Position numbers and translations under genes: made by a program. A DNA stretch of 42,226 nucleotides, taken from Nitrospira sp. Its GTDB lineage: Bacteria; Nitrospirota; Nitrospiria; Nitrospirales; Nitrospiraceae. How positions within the stretch are numbered: the first letter of the stretch is position 1; every line of letters starts with the position of its first letter. The notes below the pieces were generated by a model. It was not told where the DNA came from and made no database searches. It saw only the letters and a program-made list of their open reading frames with translations. Shown in pieces: positions 7,369 to 33,308 of this stretch. The stretch covers positions 1 through 42,226 of the forward strand of contig JARFPM010000015.1 in the NCBI GenBank assembly GCA_030444405.1, given 5' to 3'.

Positions 7369-9099
7369 ATGTCGATCTTCAAGCGATTCCTGCCGTTCGT
7401 ACGCCCGTATTTGACACGGCTGATACTGGCCGGGCTCTTGGTGAGCGGGGTTGCGCTCATCAATCTCGCATTGGTTCGGCTGGCCGGCACCCTCTGGGAT
7501 GTCATTACTGTTCAGCACGATGCCGATCAGATGACCCAGTCAATCGGCCTGTTTCTGAGCCTGGTGATTGTACAGGGGCTATGCTCGATGGGGCATAGTT
7601 ATCTGACCGCGTGGGTCTCTCAGGAAGTCGTCGCGGACTTTCGCAAACATGTCTTTGGCCATCTGCAGACGCTGACGGTGAGCTTTTTTGCTCGGCGCCG
7701 TACAGGAGAACTGCTCTCCCGATTGATGACCGATGTGACAGTCATCCAATCCATCGTGACAGAAACCCCCATCGACGGCGTCAAACAACTCGTGACGTTC
7801 CTCGGCGGCATTACGTTCCTCCTCCTGATGAATTGGCGACTCTGCCTCCTGACCCTCATTCTACTCCCATTACTGGTGCTGGTCGCCAAGGTATTCGGCC
7901 GCCGGTTGAAATCCCTTTCCACCTCGATTCAAGACCACACCGCCGCGCTCAGCACCCTCATCGAAGAAGTGATTTCGGGCATTCGCATCGTCAAATCATT
8001 CGTCCAGACACAACGGGAACAGGCTCGTTTCGCGGATCAGGTTGATCAAACGCTGCAACTCACGCTCCGCCGAGCCGGCATCATGGCCGTCTTTATTCCG
8101 GTAATCAGCCTCCTGACGTTCTCATCCGCCACCGCGGTGCTGTGGTACGGGGGCAGACAAGTCATTGATGGGGTCGTCACGCCGGGCGATCTATTCGCCT
8201 TCGTCTTGTTCGCCGGCATCCTGATCGGTCCCTTCAGCTCGGCCGCGCGCGTCTTTGCGCAGATCAAGGAGGCCCAGGGAGCGACACAGCGTGTCTTCGA
8301 AATTCTAGATGCTCAGCCGGACATTCGTGATCAATCCGACGCACAGACCCTTGTGACCGTCGATGGCCATGTGCGGGTGGAAGGCGTCAACTTCGGCTAT
8401 GATGTTCGTCATCCGGTGTTGTCGAACCTGTCGTTCGAGGCCAAGCCAGGCGAACTGGTCGCGCTAGTGGGACCGACGGGCGCCGGCAAGACCACCGTCA
8501 TTAACCTGCTTCACCGCTTCTACGATCCAACGGAAGGCCGCATCACGATCGACGGCAAAGATCTTCGCCATGTGACCGTTGAGAGTTGGTACCGACAGAT
8601 CGCGCTCGTCCCCCAAGAAACGATCCTCTTTGGGGGCACCATCCTCGATAACATTCGCTACGGCAATATGGCAGCGAATGAAGCCTCTGTCATGGAGGTG
8701 AGCAAAGCCGCTCATGCACATGACTTCATCACAGCCTTGCCGGACGGGTATCAAACCCTGGTGGGCGAGAAGGGGGTCAACCTCTCGGGCGGACAACGCC
8801 AACGAATTGCGATCGCTCGGGCCATCTTGAAAAATCCTCGTATCTTGTTGCTGGACGAAGCGACCTCGTCGCTCGACACCGAATCGGAGCGACTAGTTCA
8901 AGACGCACTCCACCGCCTCATGGAAGGTCGCACGACCTTCGTCGTCGCACACCGACTGTCGACCATTCAACGTGCAGACCGAATTCTGGTCCTGGATAAG
9001 GGGAAAATGGTCGAGGAAGGCACCCACGCACAGCTTCTAGAACGCAAGGGTCTGTACCACTACCTCTATACCATCCGCCTGAACGAACCGACCGCTTAA
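7369..9099 (+). CDS. MsbA-like ABC exporter (membrane and ATPase domains fused)
   Basis: Half-transporter of the lipid/multidrug exporter class, working as a homodimer in the inner membrane. The 576 residues comprise a six-helix membrane domain (residues about 1-310) and a nucleotide-binding domain. All ATPase motifs are intact: Walker A GPTGAGKTT, Q-loop VPQETILFGG, signature LSGGQRQR, Walker B ILLLDEATSSLD and the switch His in VAHRLS. Overall it is most like MsbA/LapB-type exporters; the substrate cannot be read from sequence. The start lacks a clear ribosome site, but no earlier in-frame start fits. It contrasts with the motif-less exporter at 25688-27364. Confidence 0.9.
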   Translation: MSIFKRFLPFVRPYLTRLILAGLLVSGVALINLALVRLAGTLWDVITVQHDADQMTQSIGLFLSLVIVQGLCSMGHSYLTAWVSQEVVADFRKHVFGHLQTLTVSFFARRRTGELLSRLMTDVTVIQSIVTETPIDGVKQLVTFLGGITFLLLMNWRLCLLTLILLPLLVLVAKVFGRRLKSLSTSIQDHTAALSTLIEEVISGIRIVKSFVQTQREQARFADQVDQTLQLTLRRAGIMAVFIPVISLLTFSSATAVLWYGGRQVIDGVVTPGDLFAFVLFAGILIGPFSSAARVFAQIKEAQGATQRVFEILDAQPDIRDQSDAQTLVTVDGHVRVEGVNFGYDVRHPVLSNLSFEAKPGELVALVGPTGAGKTTVINLLHRFYDPTEGRITIDGKDLRHVTVESWYRQIALVPQETILFGGTILDNIRYGNMAANEASVMEVSKAAHAHDFITALPDGYQTLVGEKGVNLSGGQRQRIAIARAILKNPRILLLDEATSSLDTESERLVQDALHRLMEGRTTFVVAHRLSTIQRADRILVLDKGKMVEEGTHAQLLERKGLYHYLYTIRLNEPTA

Positions 9100-24197: not shown

Positions 24198-25643
24198 CTA
24201 CTTAGCGCCTGGTGCCGCTACCTTGGGCGCGAACATCTCAAACAAACTGGGTTCCCGCTCAATATAGTCCGGCGGGAAGAAGTTAAAGCGCCGCCACAGT
24301 TCGTACCAAAGAGGGACACGATTCATGATCACCCAACCCAGTACCTTTGTGCCCTGCCTGACCTGAGCCTGCTCAGGCCATGGTTGAGGATCATCCGGAT
24401 CAGGAACGACCCAGAACCGATAGTTGCCTTTTCCATCGTCGATCTGGTCAACCACTTTGATGACACCGCCACGAGTACCCGCCATCAACGAAGGCCAGGC
24501 AGGCAACGGGATGGCCGGGACTCCGAAGAAGAGGATCCGAACCTTTCGCCCAGGTTTCAAAAGTGGAGAATCCAGACCCTCAGCCCTCATTTCGATGGCC
24601 GGATCGGAAGCATGAGGAGAAATAGTGACCAGAGTATCTCCTTGCTTGACCGTCTCATTGACACCGACCTTCGCCATCTTGACGACGGTTCCATCCATCG
24701 GCGATATGAGTTTAGCGGCCTCGATTCGTTGTTGGACGCCCTGTTGCCGGTACTGAATATCCGCCAACGCCTCCGTCGCCCTGGCTGCTTCCGCCACCGC
24801 CGCATCGCGCTGTGCCATTGCCTCCATAAGCCGTTGTTGCACATCCGCGGTGATTTGATCACGTCCGAAGCTCAAGGCGGACCGACCCTGCTCGGCCGCC
24901 AACAGACCAGCCTGTGCTGCTTGCAATCCTGCCTTTGTGCTGATTTCCGTCTGAATCGTTAACTCGAGTTCCCGTTGTGAAACCAACCCGTCCCTGACGA
25001 GTTGTCGATGTCGGTCGACATTGAGTTGCGCTGTGACCACATCGATCTTTAGCTGTTCGACCTTCTGTTGCGCCTCCCGCACTTTATTATCAGCTTCCAC
25101 CACTCTGGCTTCAGCCGAGGGGACGGCAGCCTGGACCAGCTTCTTCATTTCCCCGATCCGCTTGTTGAGCTGATCCGCCCTCGCCAATGCCGCTTGGCGC
25201 GTTTGTTCCTGGGCTACCTTACGCTGTTCGAAGAGAGGGAGGATCTCCGGCGCCATGAAGGTCGGATCGTAATCCTCGAGTTCGCCGACGAGCTCGCCTT
25301 TTTTAACCTTGACGCCTTCATAAATATGCCACACCTTGATACGACCCGTAATCCGGGACTCGATGTTCTGCGGCCGGTCGTAGGGAGTATAAGCAGAAAC
25401 TTTCCCATTTACTGAGATGGTCTGCGTCCAGGGGACGAACTCAAGGACGATCAAAAACAGCAGAAGAATCGTCAGAATCGCACGCGACGCCGTGAACATG
25501 CCACTCGGAATCTGAACCGCCTCCCAGCATGGCAGCTTGGCCAATGTGGCCCCCTGTTCGATCGTGATCGCTTCCAAGCCTACCCCTCGCTTGACCAGTG
25601 CCCGTTCCCCGCTGCCTTCGACACCGCGACCTAGGCTAGCCAT
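24198..25643 (-). CDS. HlyD-family membrane fusion protein
   Basis: Periplasmic adaptor linking an inner-membrane transporter to a TolC channel. 481 residues: cytoplasmic N-terminus, one membrane helix near residues 55-75 (RAILTILLLFLIVLEFVPW), the biotinyl-lipoyl half-motif GRIKVWHIYEGVKVKKGELV, a long coiled coil (about 140-310, many Ala, Gln, Glu), the second lipoyl half ISPMDGTVVKMAKVGVNETVKQGD, and a beta-barrel part. The C-terminal tail (about 60 residues with RFNFFPPDYIEREP) is longer than usual. GGAGG six bases upstream selects ATG 25643. Last gene of the five-gene operon. Confidence 0.9.
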   Translation of the reverse strand: MASLGRGVEGSGERALVKRGVGLEAITIEQGATLAKLPCWEAVQIPSGMFTASRAILTILLLFLIVLEFVPWTQTISVNGKVSAYTPYDRPQNIESRITGRIKVWHIYEGVKVKKGELVGELEDYDPTFMAPEILPLFEQRKVAQEQTRQAALARADQLNKRIGEMKKLVQAAVPSAEARVVEADNKVREAQQKVEQLKIDVVTAQLNVDRHRQLVRDGLVSQRELELTIQTEISTKAGLQAAQAGLLAAEQGRSALSFGRDQITADVQQRLMEAMAQRDAAVAEAARATEALADIQYRQQGVQQRIEAAKLISPMDGTVVKMAKVGVNETVKQGDTLVTISPHASDPAIEMRAEGLDSPLLKPGRKVRILFFGVPAIPLPAWPSLMAGTRGGVIKVVDQIDDGKGNYRFWVVPDPDDPQPWPEQAQVRQGTKVLGWVIMNRVPLWYELWRRFNFFPPDYIEREPSLFEMFAPKVAAPGAK

Positions 25644-25687
25644 GGAGCCTCCATTCATTTACCGGTGTTAATTGCCATTCCAACGGT

Positions 25688-27364
25688 TTACGCATGAGCA
25701 TGATGCAACATGATGCGACGATCGGCATGATCCGTAAGATTGGGATCCGTCGACACGAAGATCACGGACCATGCTTCATCTTTAGAGCACAGTCGACGCA
25801 GTATACGCTCTCGCAACGACGGCTCGAGCGAGTGAATCAAGCCGTCGAATATGAGGACTTGTGGATGTCCGAGAATGGCTCGAGCCAGGAGGATCTGCAC
25901 AATGTGAGTCGGCGAAACAGATTCTCCCAACGCGGAGATATCGGATTTTACGCCACGGGCCAAGCCTTCGACATCTTCTTCAAGTTCCGTGAAACGGAGA
26001 GCCCAGTTGAGATCATCATAGGTGACATAGGAACGCCCCACGACGATATTTTCTTCGATCGTTCCCTTGATCAAGGATAGCTGAGAGTCGATCATGACAC
26101 TGCGGCATTGGTTGATGGCATTGGGTTCAATATATCGAAGATCAACACCATTGTACTGGACAACACCATTGGTCGGCATTTCGAGGCCACCCAACACTCT
26201 GGCCAAAGCCGTTTTGGCCCCCGTTGTTCGAGCGTAGATACCAAGTTTCTCACCTGGTGCTACATCCAGGTTGAAGCCATCGAACACGGACACGCCGCCG
26301 TGAATCAAACTGACGCCTTTGCATGTGACACGAACCCCTTGGGTCAAATGCTTCGGGAGTGCCACGACTGATTCGGTGGCGACGTACTCCTGCTCCTGGC
26401 TAAAGACCTCATCGAGGTGTGTCAGGGACGTGAAGAAATAGTACACATATCCCATGTTCTTAATGAGAGAGTCGAAATTGATGATGAGTGCGCTGACCAC
26501 CGCCTGAACAGCAACCAATTGCCCAAGGGTCAACTGCCCTGATGCCATGAGCCAGGCTGCAATGCCGAGAGCTCCAGCTTGTGCGATTGCTTGTCCACCC
26601 ACTGAACCAATATATTGCCGCACAAGAACGGCAAATCGCGCCTTCCGAGTTTCAACGTACCGACTGACGAGATCGTTCGTCTTCTGGAGGAGAAACGGGC
26701 GGCTGTCAGTGGCCTTCAACTGCAGCGCATTCCTTGACACCTCTTGAATAAAATTGAACATGTCATACTTCGCGTGAGACATGGCGAGGGTCGTCTTCAA
26801 CGCACCACGAGAAAGCACGAAAAACGTGAGGCCGAACCCTGCCAGGAGCGTAAGGTTGTACAGGAGGAAATAGGGATGGTAGACCACCAGCATGATCATA
26901 CCGACCGTTCCACCCACCACTACATTGATAAGGTCGATGAGCAACGTGGACAAAGCCCGTTGCATAAAGACCGCTTCGATAAAGTAGTTCGCAAGTTGGT
27001 GCTGCCCGCCTTTAAATCGATTCCGAGGAATCTGTTCAACCATCGCAACCGCGACTCTGGCAAAGATCCGGCGTTGCACGACATCCACGCTGTAAAAATG
27101 GAATGTCTTGAAGAGGCCGACAAACAAGAGAACAACAAACATGACAGCTGTCAACGTCCAGATCATGACCGGCTGAACCGCATAGGAAAAGGTGCTGACC
27201 AACTCCTGTACGGTCAACGGGATGATCAGAGAAAAGAACCCAACGGCCAGGGCATAAGAAAAAAGAAGACTCATGATTTTTTTCTCAGCCCGCACAGCCA
27301 CGTTAAGCTGCTTCATCAGTGCTTCGAACAGGCCCCGATAACTTTCGCCCTGAGGTTCTTTCAT
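25688..27364 (-). CDS. ABC exporter with degenerate, probably inactive ATPase domain
   Basis: 558 residues: a six-helix exporter membrane domain (about 25-310) and a nucleotide-binding domain in which every catalytic motif is altered. Walker A is ARTTGAKT (residues 378-385; Lys384 remains). The Q-loop Gln is replaced (MIDSQLS). The signature LSGGQ is VSPTH (483-487). Walker B reads VLIFDGLIHSLEP, with Gly508 for the catalytic Glu. The switch His is replaced by Thr539 in FVSTDP. The fold is otherwise preserved and the frame is intact, so this is not a decaying gene. There is no C39 peptidase domain. It sits between TolC and HlyD genes, so it should be the inner-membrane part of a type I secretion or efflux assembly. 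It may pair with another ABC subunit or work without hydrolysis. Confidence 0.85.
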   Translation of the reverse strand: MKEPQGESYRGLFEALMKQLNVAVRAEKKIMSLLFSYALAVGFFSLIIPLTVQELVSTFSYAVQPVMIWTLTAVMFVVLLFVGLFKTFHFYSVDVVQRRIFARVAVAMVEQIPRNRFKGGQHQLANYFIEAVFMQRALSTLLIDLINVVVGGTVGMIMLVVYHPYFLLYNLTLLAGFGLTFFVLSRGALKTTLAMSHAKYDMFNFIQEVSRNALQLKATDSRPFLLQKTNDLVSRYVETRKARFAVLVRQYIGSVGGQAIAQAGALGIAAWLMASGQLTLGQLVAVQAVVSALIINFDSLIKNMGYVYYFFTSLTHLDEVFSQEQEYVATESVVALPKHLTQGVRVTCKGVSLIHGGVSVFDGFNLDVAPGEKLGIYARTTGAKTALARVLGGLEMPTNGVVQYNGVDLRYIEPNAINQCRSVMIDSQLSLIKGTIEENIVVGRSYVTYDDLNWALRFTELEEDVEGLARGVKSDISALGESVSPTHIVQILLARAILGHPQVLIFDGLIHSLEPSLRERILRRLCSKDEAWSVIFVSTDPNLTDHADRRIMLHHAHA

Positions 27365-27513
27365 GAGCACCCCCAGTAATAATTCAGAATGTGAATCATT
27401 CGCCCCTTGCTCAACTCACTTATTCCTGCACTTAATCACGTTTGAGAACCTACATCCAAGCCCACCAAATGAACTATGTACTAGCACCGAGCACTTGATG
27501 TTCAGTCACGACG

Positions 27514-29106
27514 TCAATCGCGGCCCGGCAGTTTGCGTCCGGACGAACCGGCTGCGTGCAGTGAATCTCCATACTTGGCCAATATGTTATCAGGAATGGG
27601 CTTTGACAATGCCCCCTTGGCCCACAACATTCCTCCACGCGACACGGCGTAGTCGGCCTGGGCTCGGTACAGCTCATAGGCTGCATTGACGACATTGCGC
27701 TCGCGTACATTGACGAAGAGCACGCTGGTCGCCCCCATGTTGAAGCGAGCCCGTTCCCCCTCTTCCAAGGTCTTGGCAGAACGGAGCGCCTCTGTGGCGG
27801 CCCTCACTCGATCTCGGGCCCGCACTTGAGCCGACAGCCAGTTATCGACATCGACCGTGACCTGTCGCTCAGTGAAGGCTTGTTTCCATGCCAGCCGTTC
27901 CTGTTGAGCTTCTGCGTGAGCGACTTTGCCACGGGCTTCCCGATTGAACAACGGCACACTGAAGACAGCACCCACTCGGTAGGCGAACCCTCCAATCCAA
28001 TAGATAGCGCCCGTCACCGGCCCCCCCTCAACCGTGAACTTTGGAAGCAGACTATTCTTCGCCAGTTTCAGTTCGATGTTGTTCAATCTGGCTTCAATGT
28101 AGAGATCGCGCACTTCTGGGCGATCCTCCGTGGCATCCACCTTGAAGACCGCCACATCCTCTTCGCTCGGCAACGGCGTTTCCCCTTGAAATTCCGGGGC
28201 CCATTCAGGGCGAGGTGTCACAGGTCGGCCGTCTTCCCAGAGAAAGAGCGCCAGCTTATATTGCTCATACTCGACCTTCCGTTGCGCGGCAATGGCAGCC
28301 TCTCGACGCCGCTGAACTTCTTCTCGGGCCTCGACCACGTCGATCGGAGCGACCGCGCCGGCCTTGGCTCTCCCCTCAACCATGTGATAGCGCTCTTCCG
28401 CGACGTCCAGCGAACGCTTCACCATGTCGGCTTGCTTGACAGCGACCTGCCAATCCCAGTATTGCACGGCCCCGGCGAGATAGAGATCTTGCCGTTTCTG
28501 GGCCACCTTCACCTCGGCTTGCGGCGCGGCGAGCTCCGCCTGTTGAAACCCCGCATACGCTTCGTTGATCATGAATCCCCGCAGGAGATTAAACGCTCCG
28601 CCCAGCATGAGCATTTGCTGCGGATAGAAACCTTGCATGTCTTGAGGGATCGCCACCCCGGGACTCTGTATGGTTCCGAATGCTACGCCATTGAAACCAC
28701 CGAGAGTAGCTCGATCGCCAAAGCCGTTACGGAGACCGGCGTAGATCTCCCACCCCCAGGGGTGCCCGACCCTGAGAAAGGTATCGTTATAGCCAGCACT
28801 CAATACATTCGGCGCGCCAAAAACGTTCGTCAGATTATACGTTTGATACCGGTCGAACTCGAGCTCGTTCCGAAGCTTCGGCTCCCACGCACCCAACGCT
28901 TTCAGGATTTTCGCCCGGGCCTGCGCCCGCTCGAGTCCGGTTGCCTGGAGCAGCGGATGGGTCAACTCAATCCTGGCCAACACCTCTTCAATGGTCAGGG
29001 GAGCGGTGCGAGTCGACTGAGCCTGCACGGCACTCGAGTCGATCACCGATTCCGCCACTGCGGTCGCCGGGACAATCATCAGCCAGAACAGCAAGAGAGG
29101 GATCAA
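27514..29106 (-). CDS. TolC-family outer membrane channel, copy 1
   Basis: 530-residue outer-membrane efflux protein with a signal peptide ending near TAVAE. It starts at TTG 29106; AAAGGAGCATCC lies just upstream, the same ribosome-site sequence as in copies 2 and 3, which fixes the start. Helical repeats include LTIEEVLARIELTHPLL near the N-terminus, REAAIAAQRKVEYEQYKL in the middle and ERARFNMGATSVLFVNVRERNV near the C-terminus. The region of about residues 75-150 differs strongly from its neighbours. It ends 149 bases before the ABC gene, the largest gap in the operon. Confidence 0.9.
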   Translation of the reverse strand: MIPLLLFWLMIVPATAVAESVIDSSAVQAQSTRTAPLTIEEVLARIELTHPLLQATGLERAQARAKILKALGAWEPKLRNELEFDRYQTYNLTNVFGAPNVLSAGYNDTFLRVGHPWGWEIYAGLRNGFGDRATLGGFNGVAFGTIQSPGVAIPQDMQGFYPQQMLMLGGAFNLLRGFMINEAYAGFQQAELAAPQAEVKVAQKRQDLYLAGAVQYWDWQVAVKQADMVKRSLDVAEERYHMVEGRAKAGAVAPIDVVEAREEVQRRREAAIAAQRKVEYEQYKLALFLWEDGRPVTPRPEWAPEFQGETPLPSEEDVAVFKVDATEDRPEVRDLYIEARLNNIELKLAKNSLLPKFTVEGGPVTGAIYWIGGFAYRVGAVFSVPLFNREARGKVAHAEAQQERLAWKQAFTERQVTVDVDNWLSAQVRARDRVRAATEALRSAKTLEEGERARFNMGATSVLFVNVRERNVVNAAYELYRAQADYAVSRGGMLWAKGALSKPIPDNILAKYGDSLHAAGSSGRKLPGRD

Positions 29107-29131
29107 GGAAGGATGCTCCTTTGTTGCTGAC

Positions 29132-30679
29132 TTAATCGCGTCCCACCCCTGGCTTGGAGCCGTGCATGCCCGCCGCCGTCAGAGGGTTCCCGTACTTGGC
29201 CAACTCGCTTTGAGGCCACGGCTTAGCCAAGGCGCCCTTGGCATACAACATGCCTCCACGCGCCACGGCGTAGTCGGCTTGCGCCCGATACAGCTGGTAC
29301 GCCGACTCCACCACGTTGCGCTCACGGACGTTCACAAAGAGGACCGTGGTCGCGCCCATATTGAATCGGGTCCGTTCGCCCTCCTCCAGCGTCTTAGCCA
29401 ACCGCAGCGCTTCCGTCGCCGCCTTCACCCGGTCTCTGGACCGCACTTGGGCCGAGAGCCAGTTGTCCACGTCGATGCTGACTTGTTGCTCGGTGTACAG
29501 CTGTTTGAAGGCCAATTGTTGCTGGTCCGCTTCTGCGTACATGACCTTCCCACGCCCTTCCCGCTGGAACAGCGGCACGGCAAGCGTCGAATCGATCCTA
29601 TACCCGATTCCCACAATCCAGTCCGCGGCGCTCTCCATTCGTCCCCCGGTAACATCAAACTTTGGGAGCAGGTAGTTCTTGGCGAGCTTGATGTCGATAT
29701 TGTTCAGCTTGGCTTCGATGTAGAGGTCCTGCACTTCCGGCCGATCTTCTTTCGCCGCCACTTTATTGGCCGCGATCTCCTCTTTGGTCGGGAGCGGCGT
29801 TTCGCCCTGGAATTCCGGCGCCCATTCCGGTCGCGGCGTCACCGGCTCGCCGTTCTCCCAGAGAAAGAGGGACAGTTTGTACTGCTCATACTCCACCTTC
29901 CGTTGTGCGGCGATCGCAGCCTCCCGCCGATTCTGAACCTCTTGGTTCACCTCGATCACATCGAGCGGAGCGACTCTCCCGCCCTTGGCCAGTCCTTGCA
30001 CCTGAATGAGGCGTTCTTCCGCGACGGCGAGGGTCCGTTTTTGCATCTCGGCCTGCTTGACGGCGACCTGCCAATCCCAGTACTGCACGGCCCCGGCGAG
30101 ATAGAGGTCTTGCCGTTTCTGCGCCACCGCGATCTCCGCCTGCGGCCCCGCGAGTTCGGCCTTTTGAAACTCGGCATATTCGTCGTTCATCATGAGGCCG
30201 CGCAGCAGATGGAACGACCCGCCGAAGATCATTTGCTGCTGAGGATAGAACATCAGTGCATCAGGGATGACGGCATGGACGTTTAGCGTGTAGTTATCCC
30301 CAAAGCCGTTGCGGATCCCGCCAACGACCCGGAAGCCCCAGGGATGTCCGACCTCGAGCTTGGTGTCGTTAAATCCCCCCGTATTCTCATTAAGGGTGCT
30401 CAGGAAATTCCAACTCTGATAACGAGCGGCCTCTGTCGTGTTTTTGAACGTCGGTTCCCAGGCCCCGAGCGCCTTCAGGATCTTTGCCCGGGCCTTAATC
30501 CGGTCAACCCCGGTCGCCCGAAGCAGCGGATGCGTCAGCTCAATACGAGCGAGCACTTCGCTGATGGTCAGGGGCTCGGTGCGGGCGGACTGCGCTTTCA
30601 ACGCGCTTGAATCGTGCACCGGTTCCGCCAGTGTCGTCACGGGAAGCAAGATCAGAATGACCAGTAATAGAGCGGCCAT
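29132..30679 (-). CDS. TolC-family outer membrane channel, copy 2
   Basis: 515 residues, signal peptide ending near TLAEP. It shares with copy 3 long near-identical segments (for example GRVAPLDVIEVNQEVQ and PVTPRPEWAPEFQGETPLPT), but has its own sequence around residues 70-150 and 345-380. AAGGAG nine bases upstream selects ATG 30679; the open frame to 30814 runs into copy 3. The 25-base gap to copy 1 again carries the AAAGGAGCATCC site. Confidence 0.9.
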   Translation of the reverse strand: MAALLLVILILLPVTTLAEPVHDSSALKAQSARTEPLTISEVLARIELTHPLLRATGVDRIKARAKILKALGAWEPTFKNTTEAARYQSWNFLSTLNENTGGFNDTKLEVGHPWGFRVVGGIRNGFGDNYTLNVHAVIPDALMFYPQQQMIFGGSFHLLRGLMMNDEYAEFQKAELAGPQAEIAVAQKRQDLYLAGAVQYWDWQVAVKQAEMQKRTLAVAEERLIQVQGLAKGGRVAPLDVIEVNQEVQNRREAAIAAQRKVEYEQYKLSLFLWENGEPVTPRPEWAPEFQGETPLPTKEEIAANKVAAKEDRPEVQDLYIEAKLNNIDIKLAKNYLLPKFDVTGGRMESAADWIVGIGYRIDSTLAVPLFQREGRGKVMYAEADQQQLAFKQLYTEQQVSIDVDNWLSAQVRSRDRVKAATEALRLAKTLEEGERTRFNMGATTVLFVNVRERNVVESAYQLYRAQADYAVARGGMLYAKGALAKPWPQSELAKYGNPLTAAGMHGSKPGVGRD

Positions 30680-30702
30680 CGAAGGATGCTCCTTGTACCG
30701 GA

Positions 30703-32256
30703 TTAATCGCGGCCCGGTTGTTTGTAGCCGTTCAAGCCCGCCGCCGTCAGCGGATCTCCATACTTCGCCAAGGACTCCGTCGGCCAGGGCTTCGACAAGG
30801 CGCCCTTGGCCCACAACATGCCTCCACGCGCCACGGCATAGTCGGCCTGCGCCCGATACAGCTGGTACGCCGACTCCACCACGGCGCGCTCACGGAGGTT
30901 CACGAATAACACGGTGCTGGCCCCCATGTTAAACCTCCTGCGCTCACCTTCTTCCAACGTCTTGGCCAACCGCAGCGCTTCCGTCCCCGCCGTCACCCGG
31001 TCTCTGGCCCGCACTTGGGCCGAGAGCCAGTTGTCCACGTCGAAGCTGACTTGTTGCTCTGTATAGTGCTGCTTCAACGCCAATTGTTGCTGGCTCACTT
31101 CCGCGGCCATGACCTTCCCACGCGCTTCCCGCTGGAACAACGGCATCTCAGCGTGCAGGCCGACCCGATACCCGATTCCCACAATCCAGTCCGCGGCGCC
31201 AGGGGTCGGCCCCCCTTCAAGATCCAACGTCGGGAGCAGTTTGTTCTTGGCGAGCTTGATGTCGATATTGTTCAGCTTGGCTTCGATGTAGAGGTCCCGC
31301 ACTTCCGGCCGATCTTCTTTCGCCGCCACTTTATTGGCCGCGACCTCTTCGTTGGTCGGGAGCGGCGTTTCGCCCTGGAATTCCGGCGCCCATTCCGGTC
31401 GCGGCGTCACCGGCTCGCCGTTCTCCCAGAGAAAGAGCGACAGTTTGTACTGCTCATACTCCACCTTCCGTTGCGCGGCGATCGCAGCCTCCCGCCGCTT
31501 CTGAACCTCTTGGTTCACCTCGATCACATCGAGCGGAGCGACTCTCCCGCCCTTGGCCAACCCTTCAACCTGGACCAAGCGCTCTTCGGCCACGGCCAAG
31601 GCGCGCTTCACCATCTCGGCTTGTTTGACGGCGACCTGCCAATCCCAGTACTGCACGGCCCCGGCGAGATAGAGATCTTGTCGCTTCTGCGCCACCTTGA
31701 TCTCCGCTTGCGGCCCCGCGAGTTCGGCCTGTTGAAACTGGGCGTTCTCGTCATTGACCATGAGGCCTCGCAGCAGATGGAACGACCCGCCTAAGTAGAA
31801 TTGCTGCGTATGATGGAAGCCCAGCATCTCAGGGGGAAAAGCAACGAAGCCTTGATTGGTGCCATCCCCGAAGCCGGTGCGGAGCCCGCTAGCGACCCGG
31901 AAGCCCCAAGGATGCCCGACCTCGAGAGTGGTGTCGACAAATCCCGCCGTAAGTCCATCCTGTATCTTGGGAGCCGTCGTGAGATTCCAAGTTTGATAAC
32001 GTTCGGTCATTGTATGGTTCACGAACGTCGGTTCCCAGGCCGCGAGCGCCTTCAGGATCTTCGCCCGGGCCTTCGCTCGCTCGGCTCCCATCGCCCGAAG
32101 CAGCGGATGCGACAACTCGATGCGAGCCAGCACTTCATCGATGGTCAGTGGAGCGGTGCGAGTCGACTGTGCTTTCAGTGCACTCGAGTCGATCACCGGT
32201 TCCGCCAGTGCGGTCATCGGCAGAAAAGTCACGATGGCCAATACCAGAGCAATCAT
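30703..32256 (-). CDS. TolC-family outer membrane channel, copy 3
   Basis: 517 residues; first gene of the operon, divergent from the LysR gene. Signal peptide ends near ALAEP. It is closest to copy 2 in the central helices and again diverges in the 70-150 segment (GFVDTTLEVGHPWGFR onward). AAAGGAGCATCC before ATG 32256 matches the other copies. A promoter lies 40 bases upstream. Confidence 0.9.
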   Translation of the reverse strand: MIALVLAIVTFLPMTALAEPVIDSSALKAQSTRTAPLTIDEVLARIELSHPLLRAMGAERAKARAKILKALAAWEPTFVNHTMTERYQTWNLTTAPKIQDGLTAGFVDTTLEVGHPWGFRVASGLRTGFGDGTNQGFVAFPPEMLGFHHTQQFYLGGSFHLLRGLMVNDENAQFQQAELAGPQAEIKVAQKRQDLYLAGAVQYWDWQVAVKQAEMVKRALAVAEERLVQVEGLAKGGRVAPLDVIEVNQEVQKRREAAIAAQRKVEYEQYKLSLFLWENGEPVTPRPEWAPEFQGETPLPTNEEVAANKVAAKEDRPEVRDLYIEAKLNNIDIKLAKNKLLPTLDLEGGPTPGAADWIVGIGYRVGLHAEMPLFQREARGKVMAAEVSQQQLALKQHYTEQQVSFDVDNWLSAQVRARDRVTAGTEALRLAKTLEEGERRRFNMGASTVLFVNLRERAVVESAYQLYRAQADYAVARGGMLWAKGALSKPWPTESLAKYGDPLTAAGLNGYKQPGRD

Positions 32257-32295
32257 GAGGGATGCTCCTTTCACATCATGCGGCGGACGGCGCAC

Positions 32296-32402: not shown

Positions 32403-33308
32403 ATGGATTGGCTGAACTATCACCACCTGCTGTATTTCTGGTCCGTCGCCAAGCACGGGACCATGACGAAAGCGTGCGAGGAGCTCCGCCTGGCCCAGCC
32501 CACGATCAGCGGGCAGATCCATCTCTTAGAAAATACGTTGGGGGAGAAGTTATTCATACGAACGGGCCGCCGCCTGGCGCTGACGGAGATGGGCCGGCTG
32601 GTGTTCAAGTACGCAGAAGACATCTTCGCGACGGGTCAAGAGCTGATGAACACCGTGAAGGGGCAAGGCAATGGACATCCGACGCAGCTGGTCGTCGGCA
32701 TCGCGGACGCGGTGCCGAAACCATTGGCAACCCAACTCCTCAAGTCGGCCCTGAAGCTCTATCGGCCGACGCGCCTGATCTGCCAGGAAGATAAATTGCG
32801 CCAACTCCTGACCGATCTGGCGGCACATCGGTCGGATCTGGTGATCGCCGACAGACCGGCCCCCGCGAGCATCAATGAGCATACGTACAACCACCCGCTG
32901 GGCGAATCGGGAGTGACGCTGTTTGCCACGGCGAAGCTGGCCACACAGTATCGTCGCGGCTTTCCCCAATCGCTCCGCGGCGCACCATTACTCCTCCCCA
33001 CCTCCAATGCCATGCTTCGGCGGCTCTTGGACCAATGGCTGGTCAACCATGGGGTGCAGCCCAACGTCGTCGGCGAGTTCGACGACAGTGCCACCTTGAA
33101 AGCGTTCGGACAGGACGGCCATGGGATCTTTCCCGGTGCATCGGTGATCGAGAAGGAAATCTGTCGCCAATATCGGGTGCAGGTGGTCGGACAACTGGAC
33201 GCGCTCAAGCAGCACTTCTACGCCATCACCGTGGAACGGCGGCTGAAGCACCCAGCCGTGCTCGCTCTCGTCCGAACCGCCCGACGCGAGCTGCTCAGCT
33301 CAGCGTGA
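32403..33308 (+). CDS. nhaR: LysR-family transcriptional regulator, NhaR-like
   Basis: 301-residue DNA-binding regulator. The N-terminal winged helix begins MDWLNYHHLLYFWSVAKHGT, the NhaR-type opening, with the recognition helix LAQPTISGQIHLLENTLGEKLF. The C-terminal two-lobed effector domain covers about residues 95-290. It is transcribed away from the three-TolC operon and is its most likely local regulator. E. coli NhaR responds to Na+ and alkaline stress; whether that applies here is inference. It is convergent with the pseudouridine synthase gene. Confidence 0.85.
   Translation: MDWLNYHHLLYFWSVAKHGTMTKACEELRLAQPTISGQIHLLENTLGEKLFIRTGRRLALTEMGRLVFKYAEDIFATGQELMNTVKGQGNGHPTQLVVGIADAVPKPLATQLLKSALKLYRPTRLICQEDKLRQLLTDLAAHRSDLVIADRPAPASINEHTYNHPLGESGVTLFATAKLATQYRRGFPQSLRGAPLLLPTSNAMLRRLLDQWLVNHGVQPNVVGEFDDSATLKAFGQDGHGIFPGASVIEKEICRQYRVQVVGQLDALKQHFYAITVERRLKHPAVLALVRTARRELLSSA

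Follow-up and report, generated by a model that had tools for sequence, protein, structure and literature searches.

A conserved ABC–HlyD–TolC cassette of Nitrospira whose ABC exporter subunit has lost its catalytic ATPase motifs

The cassette and its ABC protein

Pfam searches of the window, the whole 42,226-nucleotide stretch of Nitrospira sp. DNA analysed here, delineated an operon on the minus strand in which three OEP/TolC genes are followed by an ABC exporter gene and an HlyD gene (Table 1). The initial annotation had described a complete operon with three TolC genes and HlyD but no partner ABC gene, and was borne out on both points. The ABC reading frame is unbroken and extends from 25688 to a GTG at 27370 or to an ATG at 27364, the latter being the preferred start. 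Residue numbers given here are counted from GTG 27370 and are therefore 2 higher than those of the initial annotation, which were counted from ATG 27364. The match of the ABC protein to Pfam ABC_tran lay barely above the cut-off and that of its membrane domain under it. The top NCBIfam families were bacteriocin and type I exporters, all far under their thresholds, and the curated T1SS family cut-off was missed by a wide margin (best NCBIfam scores 111 bits vs 853 and 102 vs 693).

The tandem TolC paralogues T1–T3 (27514–32295) share 69–77% mutual identity. T2 and T3 represent lineages of their own over 33 loci, T1 clusters with T2, and copies are nearest to their own kind; a heterotrimeric outer-membrane channel assembled from T1–T3 is conceivable. 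The mechanical open reading frame of T2 starts at 30814, but Met46, which lies ahead of the signal peptide, is likely the true start. A LysR-type regulator gene adjoins the cassette in many loci, including those of the second family, and its product probably governs the operon. Promoter and terminator scans gave signals no higher than the shuffled expectation. An intact MsbA-like ABC exporter encoded about 18 kb away (window 7369–9099) served as internal motif control.

Table 1 Features of the cassette in the window
Feature	Position	Strand	Remarks
HlyD-type periplasmic adaptor	24198–25658	–	Pfam HlyD_3
ABC exporter half-transporter, ATPase-dead	25688–27364	–	558 aa from ATG 27364; 560 aa from GTG 27370
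Switch-His position	25745–25750	–	T541, then near-invariant D542; His in intact exporters
Degenerate Walker B and D-loop	25820–25861	–	Residues 504–517, QVLIFDGLIHSLEP
Degenerate ABC signature	25904–25918	–	LSGGQ replaced by VSPTH, residues 485–489 (V485–H489)
Q-loop position	26084–26086	–	Gln replaced by S429
Degenerate Walker A	26210–26233	–	Residues 380–387, ARTTGAKT
Six-helix transmembrane domain	26399–27283	–	Residues about 30–324; helices from model; family-specific H165, R105, W/F207, Q252 and position 289
TolC paralogue T3	27514–29106	–	Pfam OEP; separate lineage kept in 33 loci
TolC paralogue T2	29132–30679	–	Pfam OEP and reading of the ORF
TolC paralogue T1	30703–32295	–	Pfam OEP
LysR-type regulator, NhaR-like, divergent	32403–33308	+	NCBIfam NF008284, 236 bits vs cut-off 219

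The ATPase motifs were read against ten intact exporters, four from the organism's own genome and six from plasmids. In Walker A (consensus GxxGxGK[ST], here A380-R-T-T383-G-A385-K386-T387) all three glycines are lost, while Lys and Thr are retained. Walker B reads LIFDG, with D509 in place and the catalytic Glu replaced by G510, and the D-loop Ser is replaced by H513. K386, T387 and D509 are the sole consensus ATPase residues remaining in the protein. This comparison corroborated the claim that motif residues had been replaced within an intact frame. The stronger statement that every ATPase motif was lost held for the Walker A glycines, the Q-loop, LSGGQ, the Glu and the His, but not for K386/T387 and D509, and the Q-loop replacement, previously placed at about residue 409, actually lies at S429. 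An alignment slip masking intact motifs was ruled out by the alignment to the ten intact exporters and by a structural match. The AlphaFold2 monomer model from which this match was obtained is of mid-confidence (pLDDT 75, pTM 0.55) and displays an ABC exporter fold of type IV, with six TM helices fused to the nucleotide-binding domain (NBD). Its best solved counterpart is HlyB of the HlyB/HlyD complex (8dck; 545 residues, Z 26.9, rmsd 3.6; Foldseek, VIA-align). From sequence and fold, the ancestor of the ABC protein is thus to be sought among type I secretion-like exporters.

Conservation within Nitrospirales and relatives in other phyla

Motif counts were obtained from 128 distinct Nitrospirales homologues, the lowest identity being 39%. 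The position of the catalytic Glu is occupied by G510 in 125 of the 128 and that of the D-loop Ser by H513 in every one. Position 541 of the switch holds T, N, I, S or P in 127/128, with one gap and no His, and D542 is present in 126/128. The Walker A Lys (K386) is retained in 107/128 and the Walker B Asp (D509) in 102/128, with Glu in a further 14. All 128 homologues are degenerate and none carries normal motifs; this answers the question, raised by the initial annotation, whether Nitrospira orthologues share the substitutions, and supports its view that the protein is not a normal ATP-driven exporter. A close homologue was present in 74/79 genomes of the genus and homologues in 141/196 genomes sampled from the order, and none was found outside the order at E 1e-25 in a phylum sample of 395 genomes. 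The organism's own genome encodes a second dead paralogue (G000:C96; 58% identical), and some genomes, N. defluvii among them, harbour tandem ABC pairs in which both copies are dead. Several paralogues retain GKTT together with the A-loop Tyr. Within subfamily A, where dS is saturated (median 1.4–1.7), pN/pS was 0.083 for the NBD vs 0.142 for the transmembrane domain (TMD). The NBD is therefore the more constrained domain, the opposite of what decay would produce. With replacements near-invariant in 128 homologues and a low NBD pN/pS at saturated dS, the replacement pattern is far beyond chance.

Synteny analysis showed that the TolC, ABC and HlyD genes remain linked throughout both families of the order; within the window's family, most genomes have the cassette between purEK and rsuA/agmatinase. 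In subfamily B, where the order is HlyD–TolC–ABC, a second dead ABC frequently comes next, along with a membrane protein that carries a four-helix-bundle sensory domain. In N. defluvii (L149 8001–12345) and at similar loci, two tandem dead ABC genes precede a gene for a two-TM 4HB_MCP_1 protein that lacks an output domain. At L064 3528–6713, L046 4780–8361 and L175 6678–11207, orphan dead-ABC genes lacking TolC/HlyD precede genes for a histidine kinase with a PAS domain and for a regulator of the NtrC type, an arrangement that suggests sensing as the task of some members of the dead-ABC family. Other copies of the cassette (L035, corresponding to own-genome contig C96, and L147) adjoin an SthA-like gene, named from its sequence as a soluble pyridine nucleotide transhydrogenase; such a gene also lies beside the cassette in the second family (L170, L174). 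In one genome of the latter family (L170 8239–10744), subunits I and II of a cytochrome bd oxidase are encoded directly after the cassette.

Beyond Nitrospirota, the breadth of the class is that seen in plasmid records. A tblastn search of these yielded relatives at 23–27% identity in Persicobacter, Aureibacter and Riemerella (Bacteroidota) and in Novosphingobium (Alphaproteobacteria), and further plasmid searches added Sphingomonas, Sphingobium and Croceicoccus. In Novosphingobium aromaticivorans DSM 12444 the dead ABC is encoded by SARO_RS19820. All Bacteroidota and Sphingomonadales relatives that were read are ATPase-dead, with replacements that differ by lineage, and every one with annotated neighbours lies within an ABC–HlyD–TolC cassette. 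In the second family, as in the own-genome paralogue, the Walker A Lys is missing or has given way to Arg, and Sphingomonadales have a deletion at this position. The dead ABCs formed one clade in each of the TMD, NBD and full-length trees (support 71, 59 and 75, respectively), so that the clade joining three phyla has moderate support (UFboot 59–75). The dead-ABC class reaches past Nitrospira into other phyla and comprises three phyla in all. In Persicobacter (L182, L183) the dead ABC is longer at its N-terminus by roughly 150 residues. Sphingomonad and Riemerella members are publicly annotated as 'ABC transporter ATP-binding protein' or 'ABC transporter transmembrane domain-containing protein', names that mask the loss of the ATPase.

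The adaptor provides evidence for the class that is independent of the ABC protein. The window HlyD matched the cassette adaptors of Bacteroidota and sphingomonads with E values of 1e-26 to 1e-75, and canonical T1SS adaptors, those of its own genome included, with 7e-5 or worse. A search of 72,556 plasmid records with the window HlyD returned 13 matches, all 13 of which belong to dead-ABC cassettes. As judged by sequence comparison, the cassette HlyD represents a subfamily of its own; the collections searched contain it in dead-ABC cassettes and nowhere else.

Possible modes of action

ABC exporters are the defining case of ATP-driven export, and in descriptions of type I secretion the ABC protein supplies the energy. 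We consider it probable (about 0.6) that the cassette specifies a conserved tripartite system resembling a T1SS, with an ABC subunit that works without hydrolysing ATP and has been selected to do so. Instead of a broken gene, the locus appears to represent a genuine pump or channel of a type so far unrecognised, one that its own ATPase does not power. An ABC-fold dimer in the inner membrane would then combine with the dedicated HlyD adaptor and a TolC duct into a type-I-secretion-like envelope system. Its membrane domain may act as a gate or secondary transporter that feeds the HlyD–TolC duct, and the NBD might be kept for dimerisation, coupling or regulation, possibly with nucleotide bound. 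ATP hydrolysis would be absent, transport would presumably proceed in the direction of export, and the driving force would be something other than the protein's own ATPase.

By analogy to SbmA, an ion gradient would be our single favourite for this driving force, though at clearly less than even odds. A slightly more tentative proposal extends this to a cross-phylum secondary-active T1SS, in which an ABC exporter would have become ion-gradient-driven and the dead NBD would persist as a structural or regulatory domain. It is the class-specific conserved residues of the membrane domain that make the ion-gradient option the most interesting one. E29, R105, H165, W207, Q252 and E289 are conserved in Nitrospirales, Bacteroidota and Sphingomonadales and are absent or rare in the ten intact exporters; E56 and D300 are conserved in part of the class only. 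At position 289, however, the Glu conserved between phyla gives way to Gln in the subfamily to which the window protein belongs, which argues against a single universal proton carrier there. The pairs D300/K304 and D96/R101 may be no more than salt bridges.

The dead ABC might alternatively be an inert platform that only anchors and gates the HlyD–TolC duct, with substrates arriving from the periplasm or by diffusion and no coupling to energy. We regard this as possible at rather lower odds. It would account for a full conduit with a dedicated adaptor, and NBD motif erosion that differs by phylum is what would be expected if structure alone were kept; the orphan dead ABCs that neighbour a histidine kinase and an NtrC regulator likewise suggest a sensor or gate role in some members. 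On the other hand, buried polar TMD residues conserved across phyla suggest more than anchoring, and the NBD is under strong selection in Nitrospira.

It is unlikely, in our view, that an unlinked active ABC pairs with the dead subunit, as a heterodimer or in a mixed trimer of dimers, and supplies the ATPase activity. One degenerate site is common in heterodimeric exporters (PMC7756269), and mixed complexes are conceivable since HlyB/HlyD holds three HlyB dimers (PMC11026475). Candidates exist: the own genome encodes four intact exporters by Pfam, one of them an MsbA among lipid A-type genes and another HlyB-type with its own HlyD. Yet no active partner ABC gene was found in the cassette of any phylum, and the tandem ABC pairs are dead in both copies. 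An orthologue of the HlyB-type exporter is absent from several cassette-bearing genomes (G150, G148, G182, G104, G141, G102, G131, f3 members and others), of which G150 is 98% complete at 1.7 Mb, and is present in two genomes that lack the cassette (G115, G132). Because its co-occurrence with the cassette breaks both ways, an obligate HlyB-type partner is argued against, while an MsbA-type exporter is a possible partner. The earlier suggestion that a distant partner supplies ATPase activity is weakened accordingly: the HlyB-type ABC has an HlyD of its own and is missing where a partner should be found, and the second members of tandem pairs are dead as well. A secondary SecA as motor (cf. PMC4452313) was ruled out, as the SecA_DEAD matches lie on other contigs and none in the cassette. 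Two open frames at G000:C8:38325–39396 between them encode a second SecA_DEAD protein; its locus may be of the secondary SecA type that has been reported alongside HlyD/M50 proteins (PMC4452313).

Still more doubtful is a nucleotide-gated, non-hydrolytic channel or switch in which ATP, bound via Lys-Thr and Asp, would toggle the NBD dimer. Nucleotide binding is possible because the Walker A Lys-Thr and the Walker B Asp are kept in most members; the counts given above for K386 and D509 (or Glu), the paralogues with GKTT and A-loop Tyr, and the strong selection on the NBD are consistent with such a switch. Against it stand the loss, replacement or deletion of the Lys in the second family, the own-genome paralogue and Sphingomonadales, and the loss everywhere of LSGGQ, which is needed for dimer closure on ATP. 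Finally, local decay (a pseudogene, an error of sequencing or an exporter that broke recently) would explain missing motifs but can be dismissed in view of replacements shared by 128 homologues with intact frames, purifying selection and conserved synteny, and found also in the complete genomes of N. defluvii (L149) and N. moscoviensis (L168).

If the favoured reading of a selected, non-hydrolysing tripartite system is true, a class with a dedicated adaptor and an outer-membrane duct but no catalytic site, spread over three phyla, would break the rule of ATP-driven export and offer a natural test of NBD roles beyond hydrolysis. The order that bears the cassette includes the nitrite-oxidising Nitrospira.

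Comparison with known systems

We found no description of an inactive ABC/HlyD/TolC class in the open-access literature searched, in line with the proposal of the initial annotation that this could be an undescribed class of tripartite export system. The available portion of the description of the 'HlyBD2-OMP2' pump of Blastomonas fulva presents it as a usual HlyB pump powered by ATP and says that it resembles Novosphingobium aromaticivorans DSM 12444 (PMC9505733). With the same gene order and lengths, it is probably a sphingomonad member of the dead-ABC class.

The ABC proteins of type I secretion that act with HlyD and TolC (HlyB, PrtD, PCAT1, ComA) share with the window protein the fold, the gene set and a 'P-L-x-x-Q' stretch in TM1, and co-encoding with an HlyD adaptor and a TolC-type channel, a trait of T1SS, was found for the window ABC by Pfam and synteny. 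Unlike them, the window protein lacks the catalytic Glu, switch His, LSGGQ and Walker A glycines, has no C39-like domain and is accompanied by a separate adaptor subfamily. Secondary SecA_DEAD/HlyD/M50 loci, which are reported from Nitrospirae as well, also have T1SS-like adaptors without a normal ABC ATPase (PMC4452313); the window cassette differs from these in having a dead ABC and neither a SecA-like ATPase nor M50. In heterodimeric exporters (TM287/288, TmrAB, TAP) a degenerate NBD is held by selection, as in the dead-ABC class. These, however, keep one consensus site, and in the open-access papers searched degenerate ABC sites are described only alongside an active partner (PMC7756269), whereas the dead-ABC cassette encodes none. 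SbmA has an ABC-exporter-like membrane domain that is proton-driven via conserved glutamates (PMC13316013). Operation of such a membrane domain without ATP hydrolysis is proven for SbmA and would, we infer, apply to the window class too, and acidic residues gained by the membrane domain may be a further parallel between SbmA/BacA and the dead-ABC class. In the SLiPTs, to which SbmA/BacA belong, the NBD and the coupling helices are gone and a TM0 is present, whereas the window class keeps its NBD and sits with HlyD and TolC.
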